This document shows, one piece after another, positions 2,646-22,250 of a stretch of DNA of 64,000 bases. Below the pieces are notes generated by a model. It ran no database searches and was not told where the DNA came from. It worked only from the letters and a program-made list of their open reading frames with translations. Source of the stretch: Phycisphaerae bacterium (GTDB taxonomy: Bacteria > Planctomycetota > Phycisphaerae > UBA1845). A program made the position numbers and the translations under genes. Where the stretch lies: contig JANQQK010000002.1 of NCBI GenBank assembly GCA_028289375.1, positions 1-64,000 on the forward strand, written 5' to 3'. The stretch's first letter is position 1, and each line of letters starts with the position of its first letter.

Positions 2646-2652
2646 GTGATCG

Positions 2653-4722: not shown

Positions 4723-5456
4723 ACGAGCAACCAGTACAGCAAACAGACGAGCAACCGGAGTTCGCATCGCCACGTGTTCCGCACACGATGCACGAGCAGG
4801 AGCCGTACACAATCGACGGCAAGACGTTTACTGTCCTGCCCAGGGAGCAGCTGTTCGAGTTGCTCAAAGCGATTCACCCTGGTGGGTACAGTATTGGCCA
4901 CTGGGCGACCATGGCGCACGCTGAGCAAAAGAAGCTGGCGGCACAGTATCGCGCGCGGATGAAGCACGCGGCGAGTGCCGTCGCGGCGGCGCCATCGCAG
5001 AACAACGGAAGCGAGTCCGCTCAATTTGACAAGCCTAAGAACATCGCCGGCATGGCTCTTCAGTATATGAAGGCCAAGGGCGAGAAGATGATAAATGGCC
5101 AAATCAGCGATGAAGATGCCGCGACGAGGTTGAGCATGTGCAGGCATGGCGGCGTCCGGTGTGCCAGTTGTGGCGCCCCGGCTGCATTGGATCACGAGTC
5201 AATGGAATGGTATTGCGACCCCCAACTTTACAAGACCGCCAAGGGCTGCGACTGGCGAATGTCACACGCTGACGCGGTCGAGTCGGGGGCACCCCCATGC
5301 CCCGGATACCAGAACAAGGGTGATCAGGGCGAGTTCTGCGGGCGATGCGGCTGTGGCCAGCGTGCCGACGCCGAGTTGAAAACAAAAACGACGATGCGTT
5401 TGGCGACTTGTCCACGCAGGCCGTCGCTATGGCCAACGATTAAGGAGACAAAGTGA
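4710..5456 (+). CDS. Phage protein with C-terminal zinc-ribbon-like cysteines
   Basis: I chose ATG 4710, inside the end of the preceding gene, because GGAG stands 9 bases upstream; a GTG at 4695 is possible but has no better site. The protein has 248 residues. The N-terminal half contains a short conserved-looking segment (YTIDGKTFTVLPREQLFELL). The C-terminal half carries CRHGGVRCASCGAP, then a Cys pair around CPGY and CGRCGCGQ, which looks like one or two zinc-binding knuckles. It sits in the structural operon and its stop overlaps the next start. Role unknown: an assembly factor or minor virion protein. Confidence 0.5.
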   Translation: MQRLDEQPVQQTDEQPEFASPRVPHTMHEQEPYTIDGKTFTVLPREQLFELLKAIHPGGYSIGHWATMAHAEQKKLAAQYRARMKHAASAVAAAPSQNNGSESAQFDKPKNIAGMALQYMKAKGEKMINGQISDEDAATRLSMCRHGGVRCASCGAPAALDHESMEWYCDPQLYKTAKGCDWRMSHADAVESGAPPCPGYQNKGDQGEFCGRCGCGQRADAELKTKTTMRLATCPRRPSLWPTIKETK

Positions 5457-6289
5457 TGCCGGCATTTGATACGCAATGGACGGGAACCACAGATGGCACT
5501 TGGGACACTACTGGCAATTGGTCGGGGGGTGAGCCAGTCAACAACAGCCGGGCGCTCATCGCGGCATCCAGCCAGTCGATCGTCGGATCCGACCAGTCAC
5601 TCGTCACGCTGAAGGAACTATCGCTGTGGTTCGGCAGCAGCCGATTCAACGGCAGCATTGGCTCTGACGGCAACCCTCTCCGAATCAACTCGGAGATCCT
5701 GCGGCTGGCTGGCAGCGGCGTGCACTCGGCATGGATCGACGGCGACTTCGATGAGATCCACGTCGACCTGGACACCCCAAAGGAATCGCACCTGATCCTC
5801 AACACCCTGGTCGCCGGCAAGACCGCCGGCCTACTCGTCGTCCATCGCGGAAAAGTGACACTCGGCGCGACGTGCACCGTGACGCGTATCGAGCTGCCCA
5901 ACGGCAACCCCGAGGAGGCAATCGTCATCGCGAGCAACGGCTCCACTATCGCCGGCGGCGAGCAGCGCGGTGGCGTCATCGAGAGCAGCGGAGACGTCAC
6001 AACCCTGCAGCGCACGGCGGGGCGATTCAAGTTACTCGCCGGCACACTTGCCGGGCTCAACAACAACGGCGGGAACTTCGAATGGTGGGGAGGGAATCTC
6101 GGCCTCGGGCATCATCGCGGCGGGACCTTCCGCGCGTATGGCGAAAACCCGAAAGTCATCACAGACAAGCTACACATGTACGAAGCGCCTGCCGATCTGC
6201 GAGACAAGGTCGGACGAGTCAGCGGCATCGTGCGTATCAACGGCAAGGCCTTCCCACAGGTCAACGCCGGCGTCGAAGTCACGCTGTGA
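5456..6289 (+). CDS. Beta-rich phage structural protein with a W-x-GNWSGG-x-P segment
   Basis: ATG 5456 is preceded by a good AAGGAGA ribosome site, so the GTG three bases earlier is unlikely. The protein has 277 residues and opens with TQWTGTTDGTWDTTGNWSGG, a motif seen at the start of autotransporter/PEP-CTERM-type beta-helix proteins of planctomycetes and related bacteria. The rest is a run of short beta strands with Asn/Gly turns, as in a beta-solenoid. A tail-spike or fibre-like role fits the position at the end of the structural operon. Family identity is inference. Confidence 0.5.
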   Translation: MPAFDTQWTGTTDGTWDTTGNWSGGEPVNNSRALIAASSQSIVGSDQSLVTLKELSLWFGSSRFNGSIGSDGNPLRINSEILRLAGSGVHSAWIDGDFDEIHVDLDTPKESHLILNTLVAGKTAGLLVVHRGKVTLGATCTVTRIELPNGNPEEAIVIASNGSTIAGGEQRGGVIESSGDVTTLQRTAGRFKLLAGTLAGLNNNGGNFEWWGGNLGLGHHRGGTFRAYGENPKVITDKLHMYEAPADLRDKVGRVSGIVRINGKAFPQVNAGVEVTL

Positions 6290-6657
6290 TCATCTACGAC
6301 TTCAATACGAAGATCGTTGAATCGGGCGTGCCGGTGCCGCTCTACGCTGGCCGAAAGCCGGAGTACGATCCGACCGATGGCAGCGACCAGCCTCACGATG
6401 CCGTCGTGGTCCTGATCACGGCACACAAGGACAACGTCGCTGACATTTATGTGGGAAATCGTGCAGTAAGCAACACTCCGGGAGCCGAGTCGGGCAAGCG
6501 GCTCAAGCCGGGGGATGAGTGTAGCCTGCCGCTGGTGTCGCTCCGTGAAGTCTATGTCGTCGGGCAGGCCAACGATTACGTGTTCGGCAAAGCGTTCGTT
6601 CGCGGGCCAGGGGAGGACTTGGCGACAGTCGCGCCGCTTGCTGCTCAAATACTCTGA
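6286..6657 (+). CDS. Small phage structural-operon protein
   Basis: The GTG start at 6286 overlaps the stop of the beta-rich protein (GTGA). The product has 123 residues (VIIYDFNTKIVESGVPVPLY...), is acidic and probably beta-rich, with an AVVVLITAHKDNVADIYVGN strand pattern resembling small sandwich domains of head-tail or fibre proteins. It ends the rightward structural operon; the next gene converges from the other strand 4 bases away. No family recognised. Confidence 0.5.
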   Translation: MIIYDFNTKIVESGVPVPLYAGRKPEYDPTDGSDQPHDAVVVLITAHKDNVADIYVGNRAVSNTPGAESGKRLKPGDECSLPLVSLREVYVVGQANDYVFGKAFVRGPGEDLATVAPLAAQIL

Positions 6658-6661
6658 TAGA

Positions 6662-7117
6662 TCAATGCCGCAGGAACCCAATCGGCGTGCCGCATTCCGG
6701 ACATCGGTTCATCACCCCGCGAAGGTCGTAGCCGCACTTCGGGCAGACGCCACGCGCCCGCCTTCGCATGGCGATCACGACGGGTCTAATCCAAAGCAGC
6801 ACGCCAAGGGTGAGGGCCACAAGCATCAGGACTGAAATCCGCGCGCCGACTCGCCACCGCAATACGTGTGAATGACTCATTGTTGCCTGTGCAATCTCAC
6901 TCGTCGTACGGGGGCGAAACTTCGTCGCCGGCGGCATCTTGGACTTCACTTTGAACTGCGACAGGTCAATGCGCCCGTCTCTGCAAGTAACGGTGATGGA
7001 GCTGCCGCCAGTTGTGATTTCGATTGGATCCAGGGTGCTCCAGTAGGAGAATATCCACAAAGCAAGTAGACTGACGACTAGGCCGAAGTAAGTGAGTTTA
7101 ACGATTCGGCGATTCAT
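6662..7117 (-). CDS. Membrane protein with C-terminal CGYDLRG zinc ribbon
   Basis: The 151-residue protein has a transmembrane helix near residues 8-26, a ~65-residue extracytoplasmic part, a second helix around 92-112 and a basic tail carrying CPKCGYDLRGVMNRCPECG. That zinc ribbon is typical of planctomycete membrane proteins and recurs in the host genes at 52964-54913. The start overlaps the stop of the upstream gene by one base (TAATG), so the two form an operon transcribed away from the kinase. Within a prophage this looks like cargo of host origin. Function unknown. Confidence 0.6.
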   Translation of the reverse strand: MNRRIVKLTYFGLVVSLLALWIFSYWSTLDPIEITTGGSSITVTCRDGRIDLSQFKVKSKMPPATKFRPRTTSEIAQATMSHSHVLRWRVGARISVLMLVALTLGVLLWIRPVVIAMRRRARGVCPKCGYDLRGVMNRCPECGTPIGFLRH

Positions 7118-8079
7118 TAGCCTGCCGCGCGTTTCCCATCGGCGTAGCCAAGTGTGTAGCCATCAGTCTTGCCTTTTTCGTAACCCTCCCCGTACCCCTT
7201 GTTGCGCCCCGACTTGTAACCGGCACGGCGGCCATCTGAATAGCCTTCCTCATGCCCCATCGCCCTTCCCTCCTTGATGGCGGCAGCACGGGCCGTATCA
7301 ATGCGACTGTCACACTCCTTGAGCCCTTCGCGTTTCCCTCGCTCAAGCCCCGTCTCTATTCCAACCTCCCGGCCATCGCTGAATCCTCCGCTGGCTTCGC
7401 CATCTGTGACGCCACGAGCGTATGCATCGTCCACCGCCTTCGACTTGTCTTCGAGGAGGGTCGCCCGCATTCTCGATTTTTCAGACTCACATAGTTGTTG
7501 CTGTTCTTGGGTCGCGGTGTCGAGGCCTTGTTGGTACCTGTCGTTCCGAGTTCGAGCTATGGATGTCGCATGCTCTTCTTCCATCTGCTTAATGTGGGCC
7601 TGGAAGTCTGCGATCGCCTTCTCATACGCCGCAAAGTCGGACGAGAATTTGGATTCAGCTTTTTCCTGCCCTGATTGCTCACCTGCCTTCTTCCCGGCTT
7701 GGATGCCTGCGGAATAGCCGGCGGACCGCCCCTCGCCATAGCCGATTTTCTGGCCAGCGAGCGACCCCGCCTCGTATCCTTTCTCGTACTCGTGTTGATC
7801 CGGAGGGTGGATCATGAGCCCCAAGGCCATTCCCACACCAAACGCCAGGACGACGAATATCACGCCACCGATCAATAGAAACTGCGACTTCGAAACGCCG
7901 TGGATCTGGGGGTTGGAGTCTGGGCTTGCGATTTCGACTGTATCGAGTGTCGGAGGCGCGGCTTGTTTCTCGGATTCTCCGATGCGAAATCGATAGCCGC
8001 ATGGGCATGTTCCCATCATGCCGACACTCTTGTCTGCGACGTGGTACTCTCGCCCACACTTGGGGCATTCGCCTACCAT
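7117..8079 (-). CDS. Zinc-ribbon, membrane-anchored protein with Gly-x3 helical repeats
   Basis: The 320-residue protein starts with a CPKCGREYHV...CPCGYRF zinc ribbon (residues 5-30). A transmembrane helix follows at about 67-90, then ~200 residues with Gly every four positions (GYEAGSLAGQKIGYGEGRSAG near 100-130 and again near 215-318). In between lies a charged coiled-coil part (about 135-205). Regular G-x3 helical repeats resemble the deca-GX3 motif of Yae1-type proteins and could pack as tight helices, but here they lie on the far side of a membrane anchor. It is the first gene of a two-gene leftward operon divergent from the kinase. No known function. Confidence 0.6.
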   Translation of the reverse strand: MVGECPKCGREYHVADKSVGMMGTCPCGYRFRIGESEKQAAPPTLDTVEIASPDSNPQIHGVSKSQFLLIGGVIFVVLAFGVGMALGLMIHPPDQHEYEKGYEAGSLAGQKIGYGEGRSAGYSAGIQAGKKAGEQSGQEKAESKFSSDFAAYEKAIADFQAHIKQMEEEHATSIARTRNDRYQQGLDTATQEQQQLCESEKSRMRATLLEDKSKAVDDAYARGVTDGEASGGFSDGREVGIETGLERGKREGLKECDSRIDTARAAAIKEGRAMGHEEGYSDGRRAGYKSGRNKGYGEGYEKGKTDGYTLGYADGKRAAG

Positions 8080-8404
8080 TTGATCACCTCAGTGAATTTT
8101 TAGTGTTCATCGATCCGGTTGCGCCCTTGATATGAAAATGCCACTGTGAATCGATATTGGGATATCACGGCCAAGCCTGTCAAGGCACGAAAGCGGGTGC
8201 GTTACACTGTTCGCGAAAACATGTTCGCATGTTGTGGGCATTCGCCGTGAATGGTCTAAATCGCAAATGACGGGGCGATGCGCTCGGAATCTTGGGGTTT
8301 ATTTCTTGGCGCAAAGCGTGGCTGAATCTGGGGCGGCTGCGGCATTTTCTTCACTTGAACGAGAATGGCGGATGCCTATGTTGGTGGTAGGTGGAGAAGC
8401 AGCG
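8080..8404. promoter_or_regulatory. Divergent control region between zinc-ribbon operon and kinase, with inverted repeat
   Basis: This 325-base stretch separates two divergent genes. It contains a perfect 6-4-6 inverted repeat AACATG-TTCG-CATGTT at 8218-8233, the palindrome TTCGCGAA at 8210-8217 and two copies of TGTTCGC 13 bases apart. On the minus strand the repeat gives CGAACATGTTTTCG, which matches the Gram-positive LexA box consensus at 12 of 14 positions; that may be chance. Part of the region may be coding if the kinase starts at GTG 8234. Confidence 0.35.
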
Positions 8405-10657
8405 ATGGTCGTGAAGGACCCACATCGACGCAGATTGGCACATCTTGCGATTCAAGACCGCCTCGATATTGAACGGTTGTTCCCGCAATATGAGCGGCCA
8501 GAGGTCCTCTCGCGCTCAAACAACACATGCGTTCTGAAGGTGTGGCACAGAGAGTCTCAGCGACGGGTGGTCATCAAGTGCATTGAGCGGCCCGAGCTCG
8601 AGAGCCCGGACACACTTCAGCAGTTTGCAGATGAAGCGGCGACCCTGTCTGCCTTGGATCATCCCGGCATTCCACAATTCATCGCCAGCGGGATCCGCGA
8701 TCACCGCCCGTTTGTGGCCTACGACTACATTGCCGGATCCACGCTCGATGCGCACGTGGAATCCAACGACCTCACGTTGAGACAGCGACTTGAGCTGATG
8801 GCCCGAGTCTGCGATACGGTCACGTACGCACACGATGAACGAATCGTCCATGCAGACATCAAACCAACCAACATTATTGCCAACGACGACGAGGAAGCGT
8901 GGCTGGTTGACTTTGGCCTGGCACGCAACCTGGATCGGCTCGAACTGCGAGATCGCTCGAGCTTCGCCCATAGGCCTCGCGGCACCTTCATGTACATGAG
9001 CCCTGAAGCGATGGAAGGAAATGGAATCGACTGCAGGTCGGACGTGTACTCGCTCGGCATGACGCTTTACGAGGTTGTGACGGGCAGCACACCCTTCGAT
9101 CACGGCGAGTACACGCACGGTCAGGCGATTGATCTCGTCCGCTATGAGCGCCCGAAGAATGCCACGACGAAGGGCCTATGTGCGAAGTACATGGTCGATC
9201 GATCGATGGCTGCCAGCGTCATCGCCATCATCGACAAGGCGACCGAGAAGAGTCCAGAGACTCGATACCAGAGCGTTGCCGACCTTCGACATGACCTGCA
9301 ACTCGTACTTGATGGACGATCGCCGAAGGCCCGCACATCTGCGTTTCGACGAAGAGCCAAGCGCGCGTGTGCGCGATGCTGGAAGCCGGTGTCTGCCTGC
9401 GCAACCCTGATCGTCGTTGTGCTTGTCACCGCCGCCATTTGCCTCGAGATGCGTCCCACTGCAGACGAGTTGTATCGCCGCCAAGTCGACGACATGATCG
9501 CCTCCTATGGCCAGGAAACTGCGGAGGCCTTTCTGGCGAAGTTTCCAGTGCCTGTTCGCGACCCGAACGCAGAGGTCGTCGTCGGCTCCGAATTCCCGGA
9601 GCTGTGCGTGCTACATCCGTCATCAACGGAATGGGCGGTCACCGATGATGATTGGTTCGAAGAGTATGGCGATGCTGTTGGCAGGTTCGTCACTGCGTTC
9701 GATGACAAGATCATTGGATTCAGGGTCGGCGACCTTTCAAGGAACATCGTCGATCTCGACCGTGAGTCGATGGCGCATGCCACGGGCATGTTTGAGGCAA
9801 CGATGCGGTCTGCCCGCGTGCTTCGCAGTCGCGGCAGGAATCAAGAAGCCGCTGACCATATCCGCGCCGCGATGAACATTCACACGGACATTGGGAATGC
9901 GTCTCCATCGCGGACTGGATTCGAGCGGCCTCACGTCATTCACATCTACACGATCCTCAGCAGATTTCTGAATGATCCGAATTGCACGAGCAAGGAGATT
10001 GCCATTTGGCGTACAGTGGCTCGCGAGTTGCCCGAAACAAAGTTCCGCCGTGAATCGTTTTACGTGAAGGCGGCCCAGATCAAAGCGCTAGCGTCTCGGG
10101 GTATGTCTGTTGATAGTGGTGGCGACGAGGTCATTGACCATGATCGGATCAACCTGCAAACCGGCGGGCAGTATGACCGACTCGATCCTGACTGGCGAGA
10201 ATACGCTCAGATGCAAGTTGAAGTTGCCACTGCGACAAGGATAACTGATGGTCTCGTACTCAAGATGCAGGATTGGGATGGACTGCGTGCGGACACGGCG
10301 TTGGCGTTGGCGGACGCCCATTGGATTGAGCTTCAGGCCGCACGCCGTGTGTATCCATTGCTCTATTCAGTTGGGAGCGAAATCAACCACATTCTTTCCG
10401 CCCACTGTAGTCGCATCATTCGGGAGGCGATCATCATTGGCGCGACAATCGCTGAGCCGGCGGATGACGTACAGGTTCTGCCTGGGGCAGATACCTACTT
10501 GGGCGGTGATCTTATCGTCGAGACCACCGGTGGCCGCGTCACCGTCGTTTCGTCGGTAATGACTGATGAAGTCGACCGGCGTGCAGTTTCTACTGCAGAG
10601 ATCCTTGGTGCCCGTGAAATTGACGGCCGGCTTCAGTATTACCCACTCTTTGAGTAA
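8405..10657 (+). CDS. Membrane-anchored Hanks-type Ser/Thr protein kinase
   Basis: I chose ATG 8405 because GGTGGAG lies 8 bases upstream; an in-frame GTG at 8234 would add 57 residues without a ribosome site. The 750-residue protein has a kinase domain at about 20-300: lysine 58 in VVIKC, catalytic loop HADIKPTN (149-156), VDFGLAR with DFG 169-171, and the GTFMYMSPEAM activation segment. The usual Arg of HRD is Ala, so it is not an RD kinase. One transmembrane helix lies near 333-352, followed by ~400 residues of unknown fold. It should phosphorylate host or phage proteins at the membrane. Its place in the prophage suggests a lysogenic-conversion or host-control role. Confidence 0.8.
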   Translation: MVVKDPHRRRLAHLAIQDRLDIERLFPQYERPEVLSRSNNTCVLKVWHRESQRRVVIKCIERPELESPDTLQQFADEAATLSALDHPGIPQFIASGIRDHRPFVAYDYIAGSTLDAHVESNDLTLRQRLELMARVCDTVTYAHDERIVHADIKPTNIIANDDEEAWLVDFGLARNLDRLELRDRSSFAHRPRGTFMYMSPEAMEGNGIDCRSDVYSLGMTLYEVVTGSTPFDHGEYTHGQAIDLVRYERPKNATTKGLCAKYMVDRSMAASVIAIIDKATEKSPETRYQSVADLRHDLQLVLDGRSPKARTSAFRRRAKRACARCWKPVSACATLIVVVLVTAAICLEMRPTADELYRRQVDDMIASYGQETAEAFLAKFPVPVRDPNAEVVVGSEFPELCVLHPSSTEWAVTDDDWFEEYGDAVGRFVTAFDDKIIGFRVGDLSRNIVDLDRESMAHATGMFEATMRSARVLRSRGRNQEAADHIRAAMNIHTDIGNASPSRTGFERPHVIHIYTILSRFLNDPNCTSKEIAIWRTVARELPETKFRRESFYVKAAQIKALASRGMSVDSGGDEVIDHDRINLQTGGQYDRLDPDWREYAQMQVEVATATRITDGLVLKMQDWDGLRADTALALADAHWIELQAARRVYPLLYSVGSEINHILSAHCSRIIREAIIIGATIAEPADDVQVLPGADTYLGGDLIVETTGGRVTVVSSVMTDEVDRRAVSTAEILGAREIDGRLQYYPLFE

Positions 10658-10660
10658 CTG

Positions 10661-11308
10661 CTATGGACAGCTCGTCGGCGTGCATGGACATGATGTTGAG
10701 CTACCTGCTGGACATGAAATCTCTGCGACCGTAGTGCACGAGCCCGAATCACAGCAGCACGTGTCATCGAGCACGTAGTTCGCCCACACGACGCCGACGC
10801 CGAATGTTGTCTCGATGTCGTCCCATTCCAGCTCGTCGACGGTGTCGACTTTGCCGTCTTTGTTGATGTCGAAGTTCGTGGACTTTGATCCACCGCTGAC
10901 CGCATTTGCCAGAATGGTTTCGTCGTTGCTGTCCGTATCACCGTCGCCGTCGAAGTCGCCGGGATAGAACTTCACGACAACGATGTCGCCGTCGATGTCG
11001 ACGGTCAGTTCCATTCCAGGTGTCATGTTGCTTGTGAAGTGGATCACGTGCGTCGTCCCGGTGCCCGTCACAGAATCAACGTCCGGGCAATTCGACTGGT
11101 TGCAGGAGAGATCCACATCTGCCGCGTCGAGTGTTCGTGACGCCGTGTACTGGACGGTCATCTGCCGAGGGCCGAGCACCTTGTCGTTGTGGTCAAGCTG
11201 GGCATCGGCGATGACTTTGCCAGCTGATGGATCGGTCCATGCGATACCCGCAAACGAATTGGTTGCCATGGCGCAGATTGCAGTGATCAGTGTGCTTCTA
11301 AGAATCAT
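10661..11308 (-). CDS. Secreted dockerin-type (EF-hand-like) calcium-binding protein
   Basis: The 215-residue protein opens with a signal peptide (MILRSTLITAICAMATNSFA). A beta-rich domain to about residue 110 follows, then a dockerin-like pair of Ca-binding loops, DFDGDGDTDSND and DINKDGKVDTVD (about 117-160), and a short Cys-rich tail (CCCDSGSC). Dockerin domains bind cohesin modules on the cell surface; a cohesin-like domain is visible in the host protein ending at 61013. The gene converges on the kinase gene (3 bases apart) and shares a divergent promoter region with the sigma-like gene. As prophage cargo it could alter the lysogen's surface. The domain call is confident; the role is inference. 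Confidence 0.65.
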   Translation of the reverse strand: MILRSTLITAICAMATNSFAGIAWTDPSAGKVIADAQLDHNDKVLGPRQMTVQYTASRTLDAADVDLSCNQSNCPDVDSVTGTGTTHVIHFTSNMTPGMELTVDIDGDIVVVKFYPGDFDGDGDTDSNDETILANAVSGGSKSTNFDINKDGKVDTVDELEWDDIETTFGVGVVWANYVLDDTCCCDSGSCTTVAEISCPAGSSTSCPCTPTSCP

Positions 11309-11385
11309 CGGAATTGTCCTTTCGAAACGTGACAGTGGACTCCGTTCCCACTTTGTATGAATCGGCGCAGCGGCCCTGATCTCTT

Positions 11386-11400
11386 GAATCGCCGCGATTC
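11386..11400. promoter_or_regulatory. Perfect 15-bp inverted repeat, probable operator
   Basis: GAATCGC-C-GCGATTC is a perfect 7-1-7 inverted repeat in the 110-base gap between the divergent dockerin gene and the sigma-like gene, 19 bases before ATG 11419. A similar half-site (GAATCGGCGC) starts at 11359. The placement suits an operator for an autoregulated gene, but no regulator has been tied to it. Confidence 0.35.
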
Positions 11401-11418
11401 ACTTGGTATTTTGTTGAC

Positions 11419-12249
11419 ATGGCCTCCACCTCAAAGCTCTTTGAACGCATGGTCTCGTCGGGCACGCGCCGCGATTTGATGCGACTTCGGCGGCTAGCAT
11501 GGCAGTTGTGCAAAAACCGCGAGCTGCGATTCCGGACTGATTCGTTCATGGAGATCTGCTCGGAACGTGCGTTCGCCATGCTGCGTGAATACCGCAGCGC
11601 GTTTGCGGACGATGGCGCGAAAATCCTCGCCATGAAGGCGTGCATCGCTGAGGTTGTGGAAGACGAGATTGCACGCAATTGTCCGGCTCTCGTGGTTCGC
11701 CAGGAACTGTGGGACCTCCGACGGAAGGCAGCGAAGATAACGGATCACGGGCTCGTCGATGCCATTCTTCGCCGTGTGGCGGCAAAGGAGATGGACAGGG
11801 CAACTTCGGAGCTGTTTGTCAGGGTTGACCTGGATAACGAGCGCCCGGCCAAGGCGGCCGAGGCAATGGGCTTGGATGATGCAGACTATTCAAGATTGAT
11901 CGACGAAGCGCGGGTTATCGCGTGTCATCACCTGCGTATTTTTCTGCCGGCCACGATCTCGACCACCGCGGTCAAATTTATGTCGGGTATCACAGAATCT
12001 CTGCATTCAGACGTGGAGATGCCGGATCTGGGCGACGCCCTAGATATGTCAAAACGACAGGCGATCAGGCTGATTTTGGAGGCTCCTGAGAGCCTGGTTT
12101 CGGCTGTGAACGCTTTTCTGCTTCAATCCGCTCATAGATCTCCCAAAGCTCTTTTTCGGCCGCTGCCCGCTCCGGAGTCATGGGAGAGTTATCCAGAAGC
12201 TCCCGACCAATCAGACGAGCCCCCTCGCTCGACGCATCCTCAAACGTAA
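11419..12249 (+). CDS. Possible sigma-70/ECF-like regulator (weak similarity)
   Basis: This 276-residue protein is helical and rich in Arg/Ala, with no membrane segment. Residues about 145-180 (RPAKAAEAMGLDDADYSRLIDEARVIA...) have the spacing of a region-4-type helix-turn-helix, and the preceding helices could be a diverged region 2. That is the only ground for a sigma-like call. The C-terminal ~60 codons run through the end of the oppositely oriented repressor gene (185-base tail-to-tail overlap) and turn Pro/Ser-rich, so that end may be non-conserved. No ribosome site is visible before ATG 11419. It could equally be an unrelated phage regulator. Confidence 0.45.
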   Translation: MASTSKLFERMVSSGTRRDLMRLRRLAWQLCKNRELRFRTDSFMEICSERAFAMLREYRSAFADDGAKILAMKACIAEVVEDEIARNCPALVVRQELWDLRRKAAKITDHGLVDAILRRVAAKEMDRATSELFVRVDLDNERPAKAAEAMGLDDADYSRLIDEARVIACHHLRIFLPATISTTAVKFMSGITESLHSDVEMPDLGDALDMSKRQAIRLILEAPESLVSAVNAFLLQSAHRSPKALFRPLPAPESWESYPEAPDQSDEPPRSTHPQT

Positions 12250-12769
12250 TCGCGCCACGCTCGATCTGTGCGGCCAGCGCGATGAAGCGTCGCGCTGTGT
12301 CGGGATGATGTGACGAGACAAGCAACAGTCCGCCGCTGACGATGCGATTCTGTGGGATCGCCGAGATCATCTCGTATTTGCGCAAGAACCTCTCGAATAC
12401 TTCGGCCAACTCCCACTCGTCAGAGTGAACTGGCTTCTCGCCCTCGCCTGCCTTCGGTGGCGACTCTGGCGGCCACGGGCGAGTGTCATCGAAGAGCCAG
12501 TTTGCTGAAACACCCAGAACGTTCGCCAATGCTGCGCCCCGATCAGATAGGGGCACTGAACCTCGATTGAGGGCGTTCGTGAGCGAGTTCGTGGTCCATC
12601 CTGCGTCACGCTCGACGTCTGCGTTCTTCCTGCTCCCTATCAGGCGTTCCGCTTTTTCGACCCACCCCGGCTTCGGACTATCGGCTTCTTTGGCCATAAC
12701 TCCCTGAGAGTACTGGCTTTGGCGGGGCTTCCAAGCCTTGCTAAGATTTCTCACCTTTTGATTTGACAT
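12065..12769 (-). CDS. Phage repressor-like HTH protein
   Basis: I chose ATG 12769 (AGGTGG just upstream) rather than longer versions, because the upstream residues look non-coding. The 234-residue protein has an HTH-like segment near residues 45-85 (DVERDAGWTTNSLTNALNRG...LANVLGVSANWLFDD), of the Cro/CI type that ends in the usual 'V..NWLF/Y'. The rest is acidic and helical, and no S24 peptidase Ser/Lys pair was seen. It lies divergent from the small early gene at 12826, the classic lysogeny-switch arrangement. It probably represses the rightward early operon. Confidence 0.65.
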   Translation of the reverse strand: MSNQKVRNLSKAWKPRQSQYSQGVMAKEADSPKPGWVEKAERLIGSRKNADVERDAGWTTNSLTNALNRGSVPLSDRGAALANVLGVSANWLFDDTRPWPPESPPKAGEGEKPVHSDEWELAEVFERFLRKYEMISAIPQNRIVSGGLLLVSSHHPDTARRFIALAAQIERGAITFEDASSEGARLIGRELLDNSPMTPERAAAEKELWEIYERIEAEKRSQPKPGSQEPPKSA

Positions 12770-12825
12770 GATTAACCCACCTGAGTAGATTCTAGCCCAA
12801 TGATGAGAAATGGAGGCCAGCTGAG
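12770..12825. promoter_or_regulatory. Lysogeny-switch intergenic region
   Basis: This 56-base gap lies between the divergent repressor and the first early gene. It contains the palindrome TAGA-T-TCTA at 12786-12794 and, on each side, good ribosome sites (AGGTGG leftward, GGAGG rightward). It must hold both promoters and probably the operators, but no convincing -35/-10 pair could be assigned by eye. Confidence 0.4.
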
Positions 12826-13032
12826 ATGAACAAACGAGGAAAACGGCGCGGTGCTCTGGCGTACATCTACACGCGGGACCGTGAACGACTGGAGAGGCTT
12901 GGCGAACGGGAGTCCCGGAATTGGAAGGACCAGCTTTCGCTAGCGGTGGATGAGTATTGCGACCACAGAGGGCTCGATCGTGAAACGCAACAACCAGTCC
13001 CTCGTTCGTCTCGGAAGAAGCAGCCTGCATAA
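12826..13032 (+). CDS. Small basic early phage protein
   Basis: ATG 12826 is preceded by GGAGG at 9 bases. The 68-residue product is highly charged (MNKRGKRRGALAYIYTRDRERLERLGERESRNWKDQLSLAVDEY...) and could be a ribbon-helix-helix or similar DNA-binding protein, as expected opposite a repressor (Cro-like position). No family was recognised with confidence. Confidence 0.5.
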   Translation: MNKRGKRRGALAYIYTRDRERLERLGERESRNWKDQLSLAVDEYCDHRGLDRETQQPVPRSSRKKQPA

Positions 13033-13090
13033 GGACAACATACCGTGGCATGGACGCATGGAATAGACGTTGGATACGACCGGAACGGTG

Positions 13091-14942: not shown

Positions 14943-16124
14943 ATGGCAGCGGCGCTGAAGTACACGGACCGGGCGTTTCAGGAGCCGCAGGGCGGCAAGT
15001 TCCACAATCACCTGCCTCGCTGGATCGCACACAGCGAGGCGTACCACGCACTCAGCCGTGGTTGCAAGCAGACATTACAGGCGATCGCCAACAGCTGCGA
15101 TCGACCAGCAACCGCCGAGGACGACCTGTTGGGCGCCAGAGGCGGCACGTCGCTCGAACAACGAGCGGGCATCAGCACACGGACGTTCAAGCGTCACGTG
15201 AAGGAACTCGAGCAGTGCGGTTTCATTGTCGCCCTCAAGATCGGCGGCATTCACAGGGGCCGCACCACATCCAACGTCTATGGCGTCCCGGGGCAGCCGG
15301 GATCGCTCAATCGTTGGAAGCGTCGCCGACAGGCACGCATGATGGTCAAAGGCGAGGATGGCAAGTATCGGCCCGTGGTTCTCGAGCCCGGCGATCAAGT
15401 CACACTTTGGCCGACGCAGGATCTCACCCCGGAAGTTGTTAACAGGAATATCACAGAGAATGCAACAACCGAGGTGGCATCTAAGTGTTTTCCCAGTGAC
15501 AAAATGTCACACCGGGTGTGTCAAAATGTCACACTACCATCTCCTGTCCCATCAATGCGCTCTAAAGAGCATGCGCGCCCGAAGGCGAAGCGGTCGGGGT
15601 CTGCGCGGAGGTCGAGGCGGTGGATTGACCGGGTGCAGGTCGATGACCTTCGCTGCACAGAGCGGCTTCGGGCGTTGTTTGAGGAATGTCTGTGCCACGG
15701 TCTGGTCGTGGATACCGAGGACCAATGGTTCAGGTTCGTGGTGGCCGCTGAGCGGTGTCTCCAGATCGGACGCAAGAAGGGCGCCATGTTCGGCTCCATG
15801 GTCAGGAGCCGACAGCTTCACTTCGTTAGCCAGGAGGATGAGGAAAACGCGTGTAAGCGGTTACGCGCGTGGAAGAACCGTCTATCGCCTGCCAAAGGCT
15901 CTGGAGAGCCTTTGGCGTCTACTGGGGATTCTGAATCGGTTGATCTGTCTGAGGATGCTGTGTTCGTCCGTGCGGCCATCAAGGCAGGCCGTGCACGGGG
16001 AATACGCACCCACGATGCGTTGGTCAGACATCTGCACGCGGAAGACCGCACGTGGACGCGGGAGCGCTGGGATAAGGCGATTCGGGAACTCGAGCAGGCA
16101 CGGGTGGAGAGGTTGAGTCGGTGA
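14943..16124 (+). CDS. Phage replication-initiation-like protein with winged-helix N-terminus
   Basis: The 393-residue protein has an N-terminal region (about 30-115) with LSRGCKQTLQAIANSC...TSLEQRAGISTRTFKRHVKELEQCGFI, a clear winged-helix pattern of the kind found in phage/plasmid replication initiators (helix_turn_helix_36 type). The middle is basic and low-complexity (RSKEHARPKAKRSGSARRSRR). The C-terminal ~150 residues are helical. Its position before RusA and the absence of other replication genes make it the best candidate initiator. The stop overlaps the next start (GTGA). Confidence 0.55.
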   Translation: MAAALKYTDRAFQEPQGGKFHNHLPRWIAHSEAYHALSRGCKQTLQAIANSCDRPATAEDDLLGARGGTSLEQRAGISTRTFKRHVKELEQCGFIVALKIGGIHRGRTTSNVYGVPGQPGSLNRWKRRRQARMMVKGEDGKYRPVVLEPGDQVTLWPTQDLTPEVVNRNITENATTEVASKCFPSDKMSHRVCQNVTLPSPVPSMRSKEHARPKAKRSGSARRSRRWIDRVQVDDLRCTERLRALFEECLCHGLVVDTEDQWFRFVVAAERCLQIGRKKGAMFGSMVRSRQLHFVSQEDEENACKRLRAWKNRLSPAKGSGEPLASTGDSESVDLSEDAVFVRAAIKAGRARGIRTHDALVRHLHAEDRTWTRERWDKAIRELEQARVERLSR

Positions 16125-16810
16125 TCGCTGAACGACCCATCACGGTTCCCGCGAGCCTGTGGCATGCCATGGTTGAGCATCTCTGTAGCCACTCGGCAGA
16201 GATCAAGGCGATCGAGAATCGGCTGAGTGACCCAAGGTACGACCACGCAATTATCCAGTCCGAGCTGTCGTGGTCTATGGCGGTGACGATGTGGGAGCAG
16301 GCTATGGGCGCTCCCATTGAGGGTGAAGTCGGTCGTCGGGTGTTCTCGAAGGATCCCGCGACAGATCGCTACTCGTGTCGGCTGAAGGACGAACCCGAAC
16401 ACGCCAGCTTGCTCATCGAATTCGAGATCCCGATGGCTCCGAGGCCCAAGCAGTCCTTCAAGAAGGGCCAGCGGGGCGGATACACACGTAAGGAGATACG
16501 CCAGAACGCCGAGGCCCTCTGTGCGTACATGTTGCCCCACCGCCCGGCTGTGCCGCTCGAGGGACCGGTTGAGATCGACATCGAGGTGCACTGGGAGTGG
16601 CGCAAGTCCGAACCGCTTCGGAACCGTACGAGGCCCAGGCGAAGGGACACTGTCCCTGATCACGACAACCTTTCGAAGCAAGTCTGCGACGCCATGCAGA
16701 AAACCGGATTCTTCAAGAAGGGCGACCAGCAGATCAGCGACTCGCACTGCCGCAAGCGCTGGGCCGACGAGGACAAGACCATCATCCACGTCTGGGAGGT
16801 CGCCGCATGA
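16121..16810 (+). CDS. rusA: RusA-family Holliday junction resolvase
   Basis: The C-terminal ~125 residues carry the RusA signature: PDHDN (179-183), the helix LSKQVCDAMQKTGFF and the DQQISD segment followed by a basic strand, with the acidic triad that binds magnesium. RusA cuts four-way junctions during phage recombination and before packaging. The N-terminal ~95 residues are an extra domain not present in the ~120-residue E. coli enzyme. Its GTG start overlaps the replication gene and its stop overlaps the small ORF at 16807. Confidence 0.75.
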   Translation: MIAERPITVPASLWHAMVEHLCSHSAEIKAIENRLSDPRYDHAIIQSELSWSMAVTMWEQAMGAPIEGEVGRRVFSKDPATDRYSCRLKDEPEHASLLIEFEIPMAPRPKQSFKKGQRGGYTRKEIRQNAEALCAYMLPHRPAVPLEGPVEIDIEVHWEWRKSEPLRNRTRPRRRDTVPDHDNLSKQVCDAMQKTGFFKKGDQQISDSHCRKRWADEDKTIIHVWEVAA

Positions 16811-16962
16811 AACGAAACGTCAAGCCCGTGTTCCAAGCACGAGAGGAGGGGTTGAGTTGGGCGCTTGTCCCGAGGGAGTGCCAACGCCACGTGTCTGATA
16901 TGCCCCGAACCCGCGAGATCACGAACGCGGGGCGGGCGAGGGGTGGTTATGTCCAAGATTGA
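16807..16962 (+). CDS. Small coupled phage ORF (51 residues)
   Basis: ATG 16807 overlaps the RusA stop (ATGA), and the frame runs to TGA 16960-16962, overlapping the start of the next gene by 14 bases. The product is basic (MKRNVKPVFQAREEGLSWAL...). The neat coupling on the left argues that it is translated; composition alone does not prove it. Confidence 0.4.
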   Translation: MKRNVKPVFQAREEGLSWALVPRECQRHVSDMPRTREITNAGRARGGYVQD

Positions 16963-17833
16963 GTGGACACAACAGACGTGGAACCCGGTCACCGGGTGCA
17001 CGGCCGTCAGCGAGGGCTGTCGCCACTGCTACGCGGCGGCCATGTCAAAGCGGCTGGCGGCGATGGGGCACGAAGACAAGTACGGCGGGCTGATCAACAG
17101 CGACGGGCACTTCAATGGCAAGGTCAAGCTGCACGATGATGTCCTGGAAAGGCCGATCCGCCGCGGCAAGCCGACCATGTACTTCGTCAACTCGATGAGC
17201 GATCTGTTCCATCAGCGCGTCCCGTTTGATTTCATCGACAAGGTCTGGGCGACCATGGCCTGGTGCAGCCAGCATACATTCCAGGTGTTGACCAAGCGGC
17301 CTGCTCGAGCGGCCGAGTACATGTCGCGATTCCCGGATTGTGCCGTGGACATGGCGCGGAGCGTTGCGGGTCTCAACAAGCCGAACTTCAGCATGCTCGC
17401 GTCGGTGATTCAGATATACATCCGAAACCAACCAGACGGGGCGTTCCCCAATATCTGGTTCGGCACGTCTGTCGAGGATTCGGACGTGCTGCACCGCATC
17501 GAGCAGCTGAAGCAATCGCCCGCCGCCGTGCGGTTCCTGTCGTGCGAGCCGCTGATCGGCCCCATCGACCTGGCAGGCAAGCTGGACGGTATCGACTGGG
17601 TGATCGTCGGCGGAGAGAGCGGCCCGAAAGCGAGGCCCTGCGATTTGACGTGGATTCACTCGATCGTCCGCGACTGCACCAATGCCGGCGTGCCGGTGTT
17701 CGTGAAGCAACTGGGATCCCGTCCGGTTCACCTGGGCGAGCGGATGAAGTTCAAAGCCCGCAAAGGGAATGAGCTCGACGAGTGGGCGGATTATCTGCAA
17801 CGACGCGAAATGCCGGAGGTGACGGCATGCTAG
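16949..17833 (+). CDS. Phage Gp37/Gp68 family protein (DUF5131)
   Basis: I chose ATG 16949 (MSKIEWTQQTWNPVTGC...), because that opening is the hallmark of the family; the frame is open further upstream. The 294-residue protein has CTAVSEGCRHCYA near the N-terminus, a three-Cys cluster resembling radical-SAM or iron-sulfur ligands. Later come FVNSMSDLFH, TKRPARAAEYM, PNIWFGTSVED and the C-terminal GGESGPKARP...VFVKQLG, all family motifs. The family occurs in phages and mobile elements; its reaction is not established to my knowledge, so only the family is claimed. Confidence 0.8.
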   Translation: MSKIEWTQQTWNPVTGCTAVSEGCRHCYAAAMSKRLAAMGHEDKYGGLINSDGHFNGKVKLHDDVLERPIRRGKPTMYFVNSMSDLFHQRVPFDFIDKVWATMAWCSQHTFQVLTKRPARAAEYMSRFPDCAVDMARSVAGLNKPNFSMLASVIQIYIRNQPDGAFPNIWFGTSVEDSDVLHRIEQLKQSPAAVRFLSCEPLIGPIDLAGKLDGIDWVIVGGESGPKARPCDLTWIHSIVRDCTNAGVPVFVKQLGSRPVHLGERMKFKARKGNELDEWADYLQRREMPEVTAC

Positions 17834-18498
17834 TCGAATCGATGCTCGACGCTGTGGACCGCTGGGCCACTGGGTATTGGATGCTACGGGAGACCGGAAT
17901 TCCGTTTCCGCATGCCGGGAGAATCGATGCGCTGTTGATCCCGTGCAGCTATGAAGCTGGATGCATGAAGAAGAACACCAAAGACTGGTTCTTCGATCGC
18001 GTTCGCCTGCTCGGCGTTGAAGTGAAACGCACCCGCGAAGATTTCAATCGCGGACTGAGGACTGGGCAGTACGAGAAATACGACGAGTTCCTATCTGGTT
18101 TGTACGTCGCAACACCCAAAGGACTGATCAAATCTGGCGAACTGCCGGATGGTGTTGGTCACTTAGTATGCCGTTGGTCACCACGCGATCGCACGAGACG
18201 GAAGCGATGGTACTTCAACCCCGAGGGTGTATCGCAGATCTGCAGGTGCACCTGTCGCAAGGCCCCAATGATCAAGGACAAACTGCCGGAGCACTATGTT
18301 GCCTGGCGACTGATGTTTGAGCTGTATCGACAACATTCGGACGAGATCGCCCGCATCAGATGCCGAACCAACGAGGCACTGCAGACCCTTGGGCACGTAG
18401 TCGGCCACACAGTGATGCCATGTTTGCGTGAAGGTGTCGACCAAATCATTGAGCAAATCGATCAAAAGCGACGCGAAGAGACCGAGGTGACCGCATGA
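17827..18498 (+). CDS. PD-(D/E)XK nuclease-like protein, MmcB type
   Basis: ATG 17827 lies inside the end of the preceding gene. The 223-residue protein has the restriction-nuclease core: RIDALL with an Asp, then VEVKRTREDF (E-x-K), followed by LYVATPKGLI and LPDGVGHLV. The order EVK-x-DF...YVA-P-GLI...LP-GVG matches MmcB-family DNA-repair nucleases. It probably acts on DNA. The C-terminus is helical. The stop overlaps the next start (ATGA). Confidence 0.6.
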   Translation: MLVESMLDAVDRWATGYWMLRETGIPFPHAGRIDALLIPCSYEAGCMKKNTKDWFFDRVRLLGVEVKRTREDFNRGLRTGQYEKYDEFLSGLYVATPKGLIKSGELPDGVGHLVCRWSPRDRTRRKRWYFNPEGVSQICRCTCRKAPMIKDKLPEHYVAWRLMFELYRQHSDEIARIRCRTNEALQTLGHVVGHTVMPCLREGVDQIIEQIDQKRREETEVTA

Positions 18499-18869
18499 GA
18501 GCGCTCACCATCCACCAGCCCTACGCCGACTTGATCGTCGACGGATTCAAGAAGATCGAAAACCGGACATGGAGAACGCACTATCGCGGACTGGTGGCGA
18601 TCCATGCGGGGAAGTCGCGGGCGCGGCTTGGTTCACGCTCTGGCTATCGGTACACGTTCGGTGCCATCGTCGGGATCGCAACGTTGCATGACTGCATCTC
18701 TTTCGATGCCGCGACGAGAGTCGATCCAGCATGGTCCGAGGGGCCAGAGTGCTGGCACTTCGTGGAGCCCCGGCGGATAGCCACGCCCATTTCAGTGAGC
18801 GGGAGTCAGGGCCTGTGGGTGTTGCCAGGCGATGTTCATGATGCCCTGTATGAACAGCTTGCAGGCTGA
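18495..18869 (+). CDS. ASCH-domain protein
   Basis: The 124-residue protein matches the ASCH pattern along its length: MRALTIHQPYADLIVDGFKKIENRTW, YRGLVAIHAGKS, GAIVGIATL and a closing GLWVLPG. ASCH domains form a beta-barrel that binds RNA or modified bases; some remove or recognise acylated cytidines. In phages such genes are often near base-modification or counter-defence functions. Substrate unknown. It is coupled to the nuclease gene by ATGA. Confidence 0.75.
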   Translation: MRALTIHQPYADLIVDGFKKIENRTWRTHYRGLVAIHAGKSRARLGSRSGYRYTFGAIVGIATLHDCISFDAATRVDPAWSEGPECWHFVEPRRIATPISVSGSQGLWVLPGDVHDALYEQLAG

Positions 18870-19184: not shown

Positions 19185-20369
19185 ATGACCAAATGGAAGC
19201 TACTCGGAGCTGTCGCTGCTCTACTCGCAGCATTGCCCGTCCAGGCTGAGCCCTGGGTCGGCGTCTGGACTGGCATGACGCTCAACTACGTCAACGGCGA
19301 GAATTGCCAGTTAGCCGACAACGACCTCGGCATGACGTGCGACATCTACCCCACCGACGTGATCGTCCAAGGCTCCGATCGCCAGCTTGTCTACGTCGTC
19401 TCGACGTTCTACACCGGCATCCAGTTCAACGACGCCGTCGCGTTTCTCGAGGCCGTTAAAGCCCGTGGACGCGGCGACAAGGTGCTGTTCCTCACCAACT
19501 GGAACAACCCGCGCTTGCAACGCGAGATCACAACGCCCTACCGCCCCAATGGTGAGACATGGTCCGACGTCCCGGATCCCGGTGATCGGCAATGGTGGTA
19601 CGAACGGGTGGAGCTGCCCTTCCGACGCGTCGCGGCCCTGGCCGAGTGGTTTCCCGACACGGTGTTGGGCATGGGCGTCGATTTCGAGATGTACTTCTCG
19701 CAGCCGGGATCGCCGCACAAGTTCTATCAGCCGCACACCGGGACGCATCGCTGCCTGCCGTGGCTGCGGAAGGCGATGGAAGCCGTCAAGGAGTTTTCGC
19801 CCGACCTGGTATTCGCCATCGTCAACGCCGACGTCGGTGAGGCCCGCATCTACAAGACGCTGCACGTCTTCTCTGATTTGTCGTTGTCGGAGCGGTACTA
19901 CACGTTCGCCTACCTCGATCACGAGACGTGCGGCGGTCATCGACAGCCGGTGATGCGGCACATCGAGAAATGGGAAGACCTCTCCATAGTCGACGGAAAG
20001 ATGGTCATGGGCTTGCACGTCACGCGAATGGACTTCCTCGGCACGGATCGCGGTTACCACGACGTGCCGGGCATGCATCCGATCGTCCGCGTGCACATGC
20101 AGACCTTCCTCGAACAGGACGTGCCGATCTTCATCTACGCCGGCAAGCGCTTCAGGAAAGATCCCATCTGGGGCAGCGTCGGCCTGGAGGCCTCGCTACG
20201 TGAGCTGAAGTTGGGCGCGACGACGCCCCTCCACGATCGGTACGGGCGATACGTTGAACGCTATTCCTCGATGTCCCGTGAGTGCGACGGCGTGCAGCAG
20301 TTGCTTCGAGTCCAGGACATCGAACCAGGCAGCGGGATTCGGGTACCGGGGTCGAGGGCTCGAAGATAG
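19185..20369 (+). CDS. Secreted protein, possibly TIM-barrel glycosidase-like
   Basis: ATG 19185 is preceded by GAAGGA. The first 22 residues are a signal peptide (KWKLLGAVAALLAALPVQA). The ~370-residue mature part alternates strands and helices like a beta/alpha barrel: DKVLFLTNWNN, VLGMGVDFEMYF, LVFAIVNADVGE, MVMGLHVTRMDF, DVPIFIYAGKRF. Acidic residues at strand ends (DFE, NAD) are what a glycoside hydrolase would show, but no family motif was identified. As the only exported protein of the early operon it might be an envelope-degrading enzyme or conversion factor. Confidence 0.5.
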   Translation: MTKWKLLGAVAALLAALPVQAEPWVGVWTGMTLNYVNGENCQLADNDLGMTCDIYPTDVIVQGSDRQLVYVVSTFYTGIQFNDAVAFLEAVKARGRGDKVLFLTNWNNPRLQREITTPYRPNGETWSDVPDPGDRQWWYERVELPFRRVAALAEWFPDTVLGMGVDFEMYFSQPGSPHKFYQPHTGTHRCLPWLRKAMEAVKEFSPDLVFAIVNADVGEARIYKTLHVFSDLSLSERYYTFAYLDHETCGGHRQPVMRHIEKWEDLSIVDGKMVMGLHVTRMDFLGTDRGYHDVPGMHPIVRVHMQTFLEQDVPIFIYAGKRFRKDPIWGSVGLEASLRELKLGATTPLHDRYGRYVERYSSMSRECDGVQQLLRVQDIEPGSGIRVPGSRARR

Positions 20370-21086: not shown

Positions 21087-22112
21087 TCATTGAAGAGTTA
21101 GTTGGGCCACCTTCTCCCTTAGAGGTTGCCAGACTATACGGGCGTAGGTCAGGCTCACGCGCGATGGTACGTGACCTAGAAGGAGATCAATATCTTCCCG
21201 CCCTACCCCCGATTCATGAAGATGCGTCGCTGCGGAATGTCGCAGCTGACCAGGTCCGCCGCGAGAGGAATCGGCGCGCGTGGCAGCGCTATAGGAATCA
21301 AGGCGGGACCAGCGGCGGTGACACTTCTCAAGCCACTTCAAAGCCTCATTCGAAAACACAACGTGACGGCGCTGCCTAGTACGTGCATCCATCTTTCCCT
21401 TGTCCAGGACAAAGACCCCCTCTTCAGCCCATTCGCCCTGTTGATGCACAACGCGCACAACTTCGCTCGGTCGCATCAGACAGAGGTAGTTGATCGCCAA
21501 CCACGGGCGAACATCGTCGCTCGCTTCTTTCAGTATCCATTTGCGAATTGTCTTGTACGGGAGCGACTTGTCAGGCGGCGGGCCAAGTGGCAGAGACTTG
21601 ATACCACGCACTGGAATGGGTGGCATCATCTCCAACACCGAAGCCCATGTCACGAACGTCTTGATGCTCGTGACGTCGTGATTGATCGTCTTCGGGGCGT
21701 AACCGGACTGGAGCATGTCGTCTCGAAGTTTCATAATGTGAGCCGGACGAACGACCTCGAGGCGCGAGCGGCCGTACAGGCGAATGAATCGCGCGAGGTG
21801 CTTGCGATAGTACTCGCGTGCGTCGGGACCACGCTCGTTTTCCTTGAAGTGAAGAAACTGCTCGAACGCTTCAACAACCGTCGTCGTGTTGCGAATCGGC
21901 GGCAATCGTTGCGTGTTACGATGTGCTCGCCACGTTGCCCAATCCTGCAGGCTCGCGAGATATTCTTTTTCGGCATCGGCCTTGTTTTTGCCGAGATAGT
22001 GGTCTTTTCCGCCCCAGCGGACGAAGTAGTAGCCCTGTTTGTGGATCCTGAGTTTCGGGGGCTTCTGGTTCACACCCACACCGTAGCAAGTCGGCACGGG
22101 GGTGTAAAACAC
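21087..22112 (-). CDS. int: Tyrosine integrase of the prophage
   Basis: The 341-residue protein has an N-terminal arm-binding-like domain (residues 20-50), a SAM-like core-binding domain (about 75-180) and a catalytic domain. The catalytic domain carries Arg in LCLMRPSEV, Lys in LDKGKMD, Arg in QLRHSAATHL, the LLGH box and the nucleophile in SLTYARI. The usual His of HxxR is Gly here (GQLR), so box II is atypical. It integrates and excises the prophage. It reads leftward, away from the tRNA-Asn that is the probable target, as expected for an integrase at the att end. The exact start is uncertain: several GTG codons lie close together. Confidence 0.85.
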   Translation of the reverse strand: MFYTPVPTCYGVGVNQKPPKLRIHKQGYYFVRWGGKDHYLGKNKADAEKEYLASLQDWATWRAHRNTQRLPPIRNTTTVVEAFEQFLHFKENERGPDAREYYRKHLARFIRLYGRSRLEVVRPAHIMKLRDDMLQSGYAPKTINHDVTSIKTFVTWASVLEMMPPIPVRGIKSLPLGPPPDKSLPYKTIRKWILKEASDDVRPWLAINYLCLMRPSEVVRVVHQQGEWAEEGVFVLDKGKMDARTRQRRHVVFSNEALKWLEKCHRRWSRLDSYSAATRADSSRGGPGQLRHSAATHLHESGVGREDIDLLLGHVPSRVSLTYARIVWQPLREKVAQLTLQ

Positions 22113-22177
22113 GATGAGGGGGTGTAGCGATTCCGCAGCAACATTGCGTAAATGCTTATCGTTACAGGACTTGAAAA
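22113..22177. other. Probable attachment-site flank (attR side)
   Basis: This 65-base gap lies between the integrase start and the tRNA 3' end. Crossover is expected in the 3' part of the tRNA, which would be duplicated at the far, unseen end of the prophage. The core cannot be delimited because only one junction is present. Confidence 0.5.
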
Positions 22178-22250
22178 CTCCTCGACAAGGACTCGAACCT
22201 TGAACCTAGCGGTTAACAGCCGCTCGCTCTACCGATTGAGCTATCGAGGA
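22178..22250 (-). tRNA. tRNA-Asn(GTT)
   Basis: The minus strand gives a complete cloverleaf: acceptor TCCTCGA/TCGAGGA, D arm with AGCTCAATCGGTAGAGC, anticodon stem AGCGG/CCGCT around CTGTTAA (anticodon GTT), T arm with GGTTCGAGTCC, discriminator G. CCA is not encoded. Its 3' end points to the integrase, which makes it the likely prophage attachment gene; the copy here is intact. Confidence 0.95.

Follow-up and report, generated by a model that had tools for sequence, protein, structure and literature searches.

A DUF5131-ASCH pairing in an integrative element of a Phycisphaerae bacterium: candidate nucleobase-processing cargo

A run of overlapping genes in a Phycisphaerae bacterium raises the question of which of them belong together and what they do. 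The window analyzed here is a stretch of 64,000 nucleotides (positions 1 to 64,000, forward strand, of contig JANQQK010000002.1, assembly GCA_028289375.1). Within it, an integrative element carries on the plus strand genes for RusA (16121-16810), a DUF5131 protein (16949-17833), an MmcB-like protein (17827-18498) and an ASCH protein (18495-18869). An initial annotation, made from the letters alone, joined all four in a phage DNA-metabolism cassette. Our best reading is that DUF5131, the MmcB-like protein and ASCH form a cargo module between RusA and a 394-residue protein of an element integrated at a tRNA-Asn gene, and we give a probability of roughly 0.5 that this module is swappable nucleobase-processing cargo. 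Each family is already known by name, and what appears to be new here is the DUF5131-ASCH pairing. Neither a report of this pairing nor a mention of the name DUF5131 was found in the literature searched, with subscription papers and preprints largely outside it. L, C and G numbers below are our identifiers for loci, contigs and genomes.

The linkage was first suggested by the neighbors of DUF5131 in prophages of the window's phylum. Among 392 genomes sampled from this phylum, 83 have a DUF5131 match that exceeds the family cut-off, and a census of the 392, leaving out matches under the cut-off and further fragments of a locus, comprised 92 DUF5131 loci, 46 with and 46 without a gene for TcmP, a partner discussed below. 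An ASCH gene was located within 3 kb of 7 of the 46 TcmP-less loci, always on the same strand, compared to 1 of 78 RusA matches in the 392 genomes, namely the window itself (Fisher p = 0.004; RusA and ASCH positions were compared by eye in match tables). A further RusA gene, that of G389, is separated from an ASCH gene by 3.3 kb, just beyond the limit, so that the control would be 2/78 at 4 kb. A nearby ASCH gene was also seen at one TcmP-paired locus, L048. When phrog_874, the commoner DUF5131-linked ASCH type, was taken as the starting point, matches to it turned up in 10 genomes, and in 6 of these one lies no more than about 1.1 kb from a DUF5131 match; 4 of the 6 had supplied rows to the query alignment.

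Linkage was also measured in viral contigs, using for each family the best 80 loci of a longer match list. DUF5131 was present within 4 kb of 16/80 phrog_874-type loci (13/77 after removal of three training-row copies; p = 5e-5) and of 6/80 loci with the ASCH type of the window (p = 0.03), on the same strand in every case. It was found at that distance from none of 80 viral RusA loci, whose flanks average about 10% shorter than those of the ASCH samples; this control was collected with an alignment of three RusA proteins, window-like sequences having yielded no locus. In a metagenome-assembled genome from Thermoplasmata (L149), a window-type ASCH gene overlaps the start of DUF5131. TcmP-less DUF5131 repeatedly gains ASCH partners. 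The check set beforehand for the initial annotation was whether linkage of its families recurs; the DUF5131-ASCH linkage does so across genomes and viral contigs, and the attempted refutation failed.

To address what such a pair might do, we examined DUF5131 itself. The window protein begins at ATG 16949, where homology begins (the longest frame opens at TTG 16865), and passes PF07505 with 277.5 bits against a cut-off of 28.9 (E = 1.2e-82). The three-cysteine cluster described in the initial annotation was confirmed: C17, C24 and C27 are among the residues invariant in 13 aligned proteins, as is GGESG at 221-225. The motif CX6CX2C is kept in 176 of 184 DUF5131 sequences, and GGES or GGPS in 172 of them. 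A structure model was predicted from the 13-protein alignment, with a mean predicted local distance difference test score (pLDDT) of 71.8. All six Foldseek matches under E 0.001 were to spore photoproduct lyase (PDB 4k9r, 4fhf, 4fhc), which was also the best fold match in VIA-align (Z 10.1 over 190 residues, 3.2 A, 10% identity). RlmN (9.8), a viperin-like enzyme (9.5) and lipoyl synthase (9.2) followed as ties. Judged by this model, DUF5131 has a predicted fold of the radical S-adenosylmethionine (SAM) barrel type, its best matches being radical SAM enzymes. It differs from spore photoproduct lyase in its cysteine spacing, and no sequence relative of DUF5131 was found in the PDB. The kinship was already hinted at by the name of an NCBI model, TIGR04471 (radical SAM mobile pair protein A), which DUF5131 matches at 7e-19; its 68.2 bits are far under the curated equivalog cut-off of 355 bits. 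Beyond the genomes above, DUF5131 occurs in 150 of 50,697 phage records.

With spore photoproduct lyase as the best fold match, repair has to be considered: DUF5131 would reverse a specific DNA lesion, the MmcB-like protein and ASCH would help to find or process damaged sites, and the module would protect the element's DNA. The third, MmcB-like gene points the same way, as the family name nearest to it is DNA repair protein. However, RlmN, viperin and lipoyl synthase are tied with the lyase within 1 Z, and YqfB-type ASCH partners with catalytic residues, together with nearby DNA methyltransferases (both described below), fit modification at least as well. We consider repair rather unlikely.

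DUF5131 occurs in two settings. A TcmP gene was found in the fetched stretch of 104 of 185 clear DUF5131 loci and was missing from 81, the window included; short stretches may conceal some TcmP genes, and the count leaves out duplicates (L003, L011, L017, L156, L157) and hits above E 1e-20. The identity of TcmP was taken from TIGR04474, which matched one member at 7.7e-66. PMC12429752 and PMC12445080 each name TcmP in a table. In PADLOC, the two proteins correspond to the components of a candidate defense pair, PDC-M41: TcmP matches A and DUF5131 matches B, the window protein doing so at 2.7e-83. In the window, DUF5131 is partnered by the MmcB-like protein and ASCH, not by TcmP, and no TcmP profile match was obtained among window open reading frames (ORFs) of at least 50 residues. 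PDC-M41 was consequently dropped as a label for the module. TcmP-paired DUF5131 proteins are mostly 237-282 residues long, and TcmP-less ones are often longer. Both enzyme motifs were present in 62 of 80 TcmP-less proteins.

The distribution of the two settings was followed on a FastTree phylogeny of DUF5131, on which 71 of 180 inner branches were left open. The TcmP label was clustered (23 changes; 60 with shuffled labels). A single starred set of 85 rows contained every one of the 12 ASCH-paired loci together with the window. The two settings do not separate cleanly: 23 rows of this set are TcmP-paired, the window protein's nearest tree relative (L076) is TcmP-paired, and TcmP pairing is found in viral contigs too, at 13 of 79 loci. 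ASCH pairing required 11 changes, at least 7 of them forced by starred branches, and its label was no more clustered than shuffled labels (104/500 shuffles as low); these results suggest that ASCH pairing was gained or lost many times. As a separate observation, DUF4326-like genes lie near DUF5131 in six loci (L009, L014, L015, L075, L122, L150). PF14216 matched one member of this cluster, and in Petra L073 a gene annotated as DUF4326 lies close to the ASCH gene.

The kinship with PDC-M41 allows for counter-defense by homology, in which a phage-type DUF5131, as half of the TcmP-DUF5131 pair, would neutralize that system or protect against it. The matches to PDC-M41A and PDC-M41B, the presence of TcmP at more than half of the loci and the TcmP-paired nearest relative are all consistent with this. 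The enzyme motifs retained in most TcmP-less proteins are unlike what an inert decoy would carry, and the recurrent partners are ASCH proteins and methyltransferases. Counter-defense of this kind therefore appears improbable to us.

Two types of ASCH protein accompany DUF5131. The window protein passes PF04266 (28.2 bits, cut-off 21.2) and belongs to phrog_3193 (6e-30). A profile of five window-type proteins, A5, matched ASC-1 in the PDB (8yew, 2e5o) at 3.1e-18 over profile positions 3-137; unlike that domain of ASC-1, the window ASCH is a stand-alone protein, is carried by an integrative element and has other partners. The commoner type, phrog_874, is listed as of unknown function. Pfam was run on 145 neighbors, drawn largely from 338 listed, and recognized ASCH in only 2, because it misses the phrog_874 type; the structure of phrog_874 was therefore predicted, from 40 viral sequences (mean pLDDT 74.8). 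With the resulting model, Foldseek on its own found nothing below E 0.001, and no PDB sequence relative was found at a useful E-value. Fold comparison settled the identity: the best match was E. coli YqfB (Z 11.6, 101 residues, 2.3 A), an N4-acetylcytidine (ac4C) amidohydrolase (PDB 9kyh), and the matches are ASCH proteins.

Residues K21, T24 and R26 are kept in all 40 phrog_874 sequences. The corresponding K, T and R of YqfB are named as catalytic, with T as the nucleophile, in PMC9599836. On the evidence of the model and these residues, phrog_874 is predicted to be a YqfB-like ASCH protein that retains the catalytic K, T and R. At the YqfB-type catalytic positions the window ASCH carries K19, E22 and R24 (K..E.R in place of K..T.R). 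With E where T24 sits, it would be without the nucleophile that PMC9599836 names for YqfB. ASCH proteins are described as binding or hydrolyzing modified bases in PMC9599836 and PMC7641849, and a 5-hydroxymethylcytosine glycosylase is described as having an ASCH-like predicted structure in PMC13160076. In one further locus, L057 of G389, only a remnant of DUF5131 is left (10184-10513); the phrog_874 ASCH gene next to it looks intact, a Dcm-like gene is also adjacent, and RusA lies upstream.

DNA methyltransferases form another group of neighbors. Three group profiles were built from DUF5131 neighbors, and a match within 4 kb was found at 19/79 viral DUF5131 loci compared to 1/80 RusA loci. The corresponding counts were 15/80 for phrog_874 and 11/80 for window-type ASCH. 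Matches were seen at 18 of 66 viral DUF5131 loci without TcmP and at 1 of 13 with it, a difference that was not significant (p = 0.17).

The remaining gene of the module is less common. Its name rests on phrog_5429 (1.8e-6). Pfam, PF06319 included, gave nothing for the window protein up to E 0.1. A relative at locus L061, with 31% identity, matches the Pfam MmcB-like family PF06319 at 1.1e-6; lacking a PF06319 match of its own, the window protein is named MmcB-like only. D34, E65 and K67, candidates for the D and ExK active-site pattern of PD-(D/E)XK nucleases, are kept in both aligned proteins, and the protein probably has a PD-(D/E)XK nuclease-like fold, to judge from sequence; we take the family to be related to nucleases. 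A single-sequence search of viral contigs and phage records found no relatives. In the 392 genomes, alignment A3 matched MmcB-like genes in only 9, in 2 of which the gene is beside DUF5131.

The complete trio is present in the window and at two other places, L061 and viral contig L448. The L061 order is DUF5131, YqfB-type ASCH, MmcB-like, an HNH-like frame (by eye) and a Dcm-like gene; that of L448 is DUF5131, ASCH, a small ORF and MmcB-like. ASCH and MmcB-like genes were found without a nearby DUF5131 match in L210 and in viral contigs L219, L409, L416 and L426. Of the three-family linkage proposed in the initial annotation, the DUF5131-ASCH part recurs, and the link to MmcB is carried by few cases, such as those 2 of 9 genomes. 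Just upstream of the L448 set, a frame at 2696-3235 resembles, by eye, a PAPS-reductase-type protein.

The status of these genes as cargo is suggested by a sibling element on another contig of the same genome (C92; L051, 5487-10346). The sibling shares an HTH gene (49% identity), RusA (41-44%) and the 394-residue protein, which closes the interval in the window (19185-20369, plus strand) and is 95% identical between the two elements. Between RusA and this protein the sibling has different genes, and the interval is therefore read as exchangeable cargo, with RusA as backbone. RusA had been counted as a member of the cassette in the initial annotation; we rejected it from the recurrent set, since the sibling keeps RusA with other cargo and none of the 80 viral RusA loci has DUF5131 within 4 kb. 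No family match was found for the 394-residue protein. Its conservation, at 95% compared to 41-49% for the other shared genes, suggests recent exchange or a selected function. By eye, the sibling's cargo includes tandem related frames with a zinc-ribbon-like C-terminus.

In the window the genes form a coupled chain. The stop-to-start overlaps reported from RusA through a putative 51-codon ORF (16807-16962, plus strand), DUF5131 and the MmcB-like gene to ASCH are seen directly in the sequence, at 4 to 14 bp. The genes and their positions had been described correctly, and the chain in fact starts one gene earlier, with an HTH/O-like gene (14943-16124, plus strand), the one shared with the sibling, that belongs to the element backbone and has weak HTH and replication-initiation matches. 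The successive overlaps from this gene to ASCH are 4, 4, 14, 7 and 4 bp. The GTG start of RusA shares GTGA with the stop of the HTH/O-like gene, ATGA overlaps mark the starts of the 51-codon ORF and of ASCH, and the MmcB-like gene starts at ATG 17827. RusA passes PF05866 (2.9e-16; 60.7 bits, curated cut-off 22.8). The reported N-terminal addition of about 95 residues is present as an open frame, the domain covering residues 104-224 only; the sibling's RusA begins at the RusA domain itself, without the extension. Among ORFs of the pooled loci apart from the window, no relatives were found of either the RusA extension or the 51-codon ORF, which also has no family match.

The element adjoins a tRNA gene. 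A tyrosine integrase (21087-22112, minus strand; PF00589 6.3e-8, phrog_1 3e-27) lies next to a tRNA-Asn gene found by ARAGORN at 22178-22250 on the minus strand. An attachment-site-like repeat at the 3' end of this tRNA (22174-22221) is identical over 48 bp to a sequence near 3576 on contig C37 of the same genome. ARAGORN detected no tRNA at the C37 copies, as expected of an attachment site. C37 (L539) holds two such copies about 300 bp apart (3576-3598 and 3879-3901), matching the window site exactly over 48 and 31 bp. Each is followed by similar sequence that resembles, by eye, a GIY-YIG-type frame, and the copies are possibly traces of repeated integration.

The start of the contig falls within the element. 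Ten proteins selected from positions 2-13051, among them a protein kinase and a repressor-like protein, gave no capsid, portal, terminase or tail matches, and we dropped the label of a complete phage because no structural gene was recognized in the scanned part. A Ser/Thr kinase encoded within the element (8234-10654) is matched best on its kinase domain by PADLOC kinase models (PD-T4-6, mad6); matches of this type are common to many kinases.

Base modification and counter-defense were the functions suggested for the module in the initial annotation, and both are matters of inference. A base-related role fits the DUF5131 fold, the kinship of ASCH to YqfB and ASC-1, and the methyltransferases near viral DUF5131; the part that does not stand is the inclusion of RusA. 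From its fold and motifs, DUF5131 is predicted to hold a 4Fe-4S cluster on C17, C24 and C27 and to perform radical chemistry with S-adenosylmethionine. Two points suggest that it would act on a nucleobase within nucleic acid or on a nucleotide: among the nearest folds are those of enzymes with DNA, RNA or nucleotide substrates, and the papers cited above portray ASCH proteins as binding or hydrolyzing modified bases. ASCH would then bind an altered base (window type) or might hydrolyze it (YqfB type). The MmcB-like protein, given D34, E65 and K67 and its presumed nuclease kinship, would act on DNA. Overall, the module would most likely process nucleobases for the benefit of the element, either marking the element's own DNA or clearing away marks or damage.

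Several observations weigh against nucleobase processing by a joint module. The cysteine spacing of DUF5131 is CX6CX2C and not CX3CX2C, the canonical radical SAM spacing, to which exceptions exist; for this reason we call DUF5131 radical-SAM-like and do not count it as a canonical member. The cysteine loop is also a weaker part of the model, with block mean pLDDT of 73 (residues 11-20) and 58 (residues 21-30). No DNA methyltransferase profile match was found in the window. MmcB-like genes were seen at 4/80 window-type ASCH loci compared to 0/80 RusA loci, which was not significant (p = 0.12). Sampling by ASCH favors linkage in two ways: only the loci closest to the query were retained, and the query for the YqfB type was itself built from DUF5131 neighbors. 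When anchored on DUF5131, the viral count was only 4/79 with either ASCH type (p = 0.06), one of the four being a training row. No ASCH gene was found near the other 75 of 79 viral loci or near 39 of the 46 TcmP-less census loci. The DUF5131 frame lacks GGES in 6 of the 21 linked viral loci listed.

These counts bear on a third alternative, in which the genes have no joint function and are separate accessory genes that gather in one hypervariable early region. At most loci DUF5131 has no ASCH gene beside it, gene order, ASCH type and the third gene vary between instances, and the lack of clustering of the ASCH label on the tree agrees with such accumulation. Linkage above the RusA control and same-strand, often overlapping placement argue for a connection, and we regard independent accumulation as unlikely, about on a par with counter-defense.

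Within the nucleobase-processing reading, a more specific proposal can be made tentatively; it is doubtful as it stands, if slightly less so than repair. Phage DUF5131 may be a radical base modifier whose cellular partner TcmP has been swapped for phage DNA methyltransferases and ASCH: a methyl or acyl group would mark the base, DUF5131 would rebuild it via a carbon radical, and ASCH would read it or, in the YqfB type, strip it. If true, this would be a route to base hypermodification not found in the literature searched.

The results give phrog_874 a structural name, that of a YqfB-like ASCH protein. With the fold placement, the TcmP split and the gain of ASCH, the function-less name DUF5131 becomes a question on phage nucleobase chemistry that can be tested, and the recurrence of parts of this block in unrelated viruses hints at a putative base-processing toolkit.

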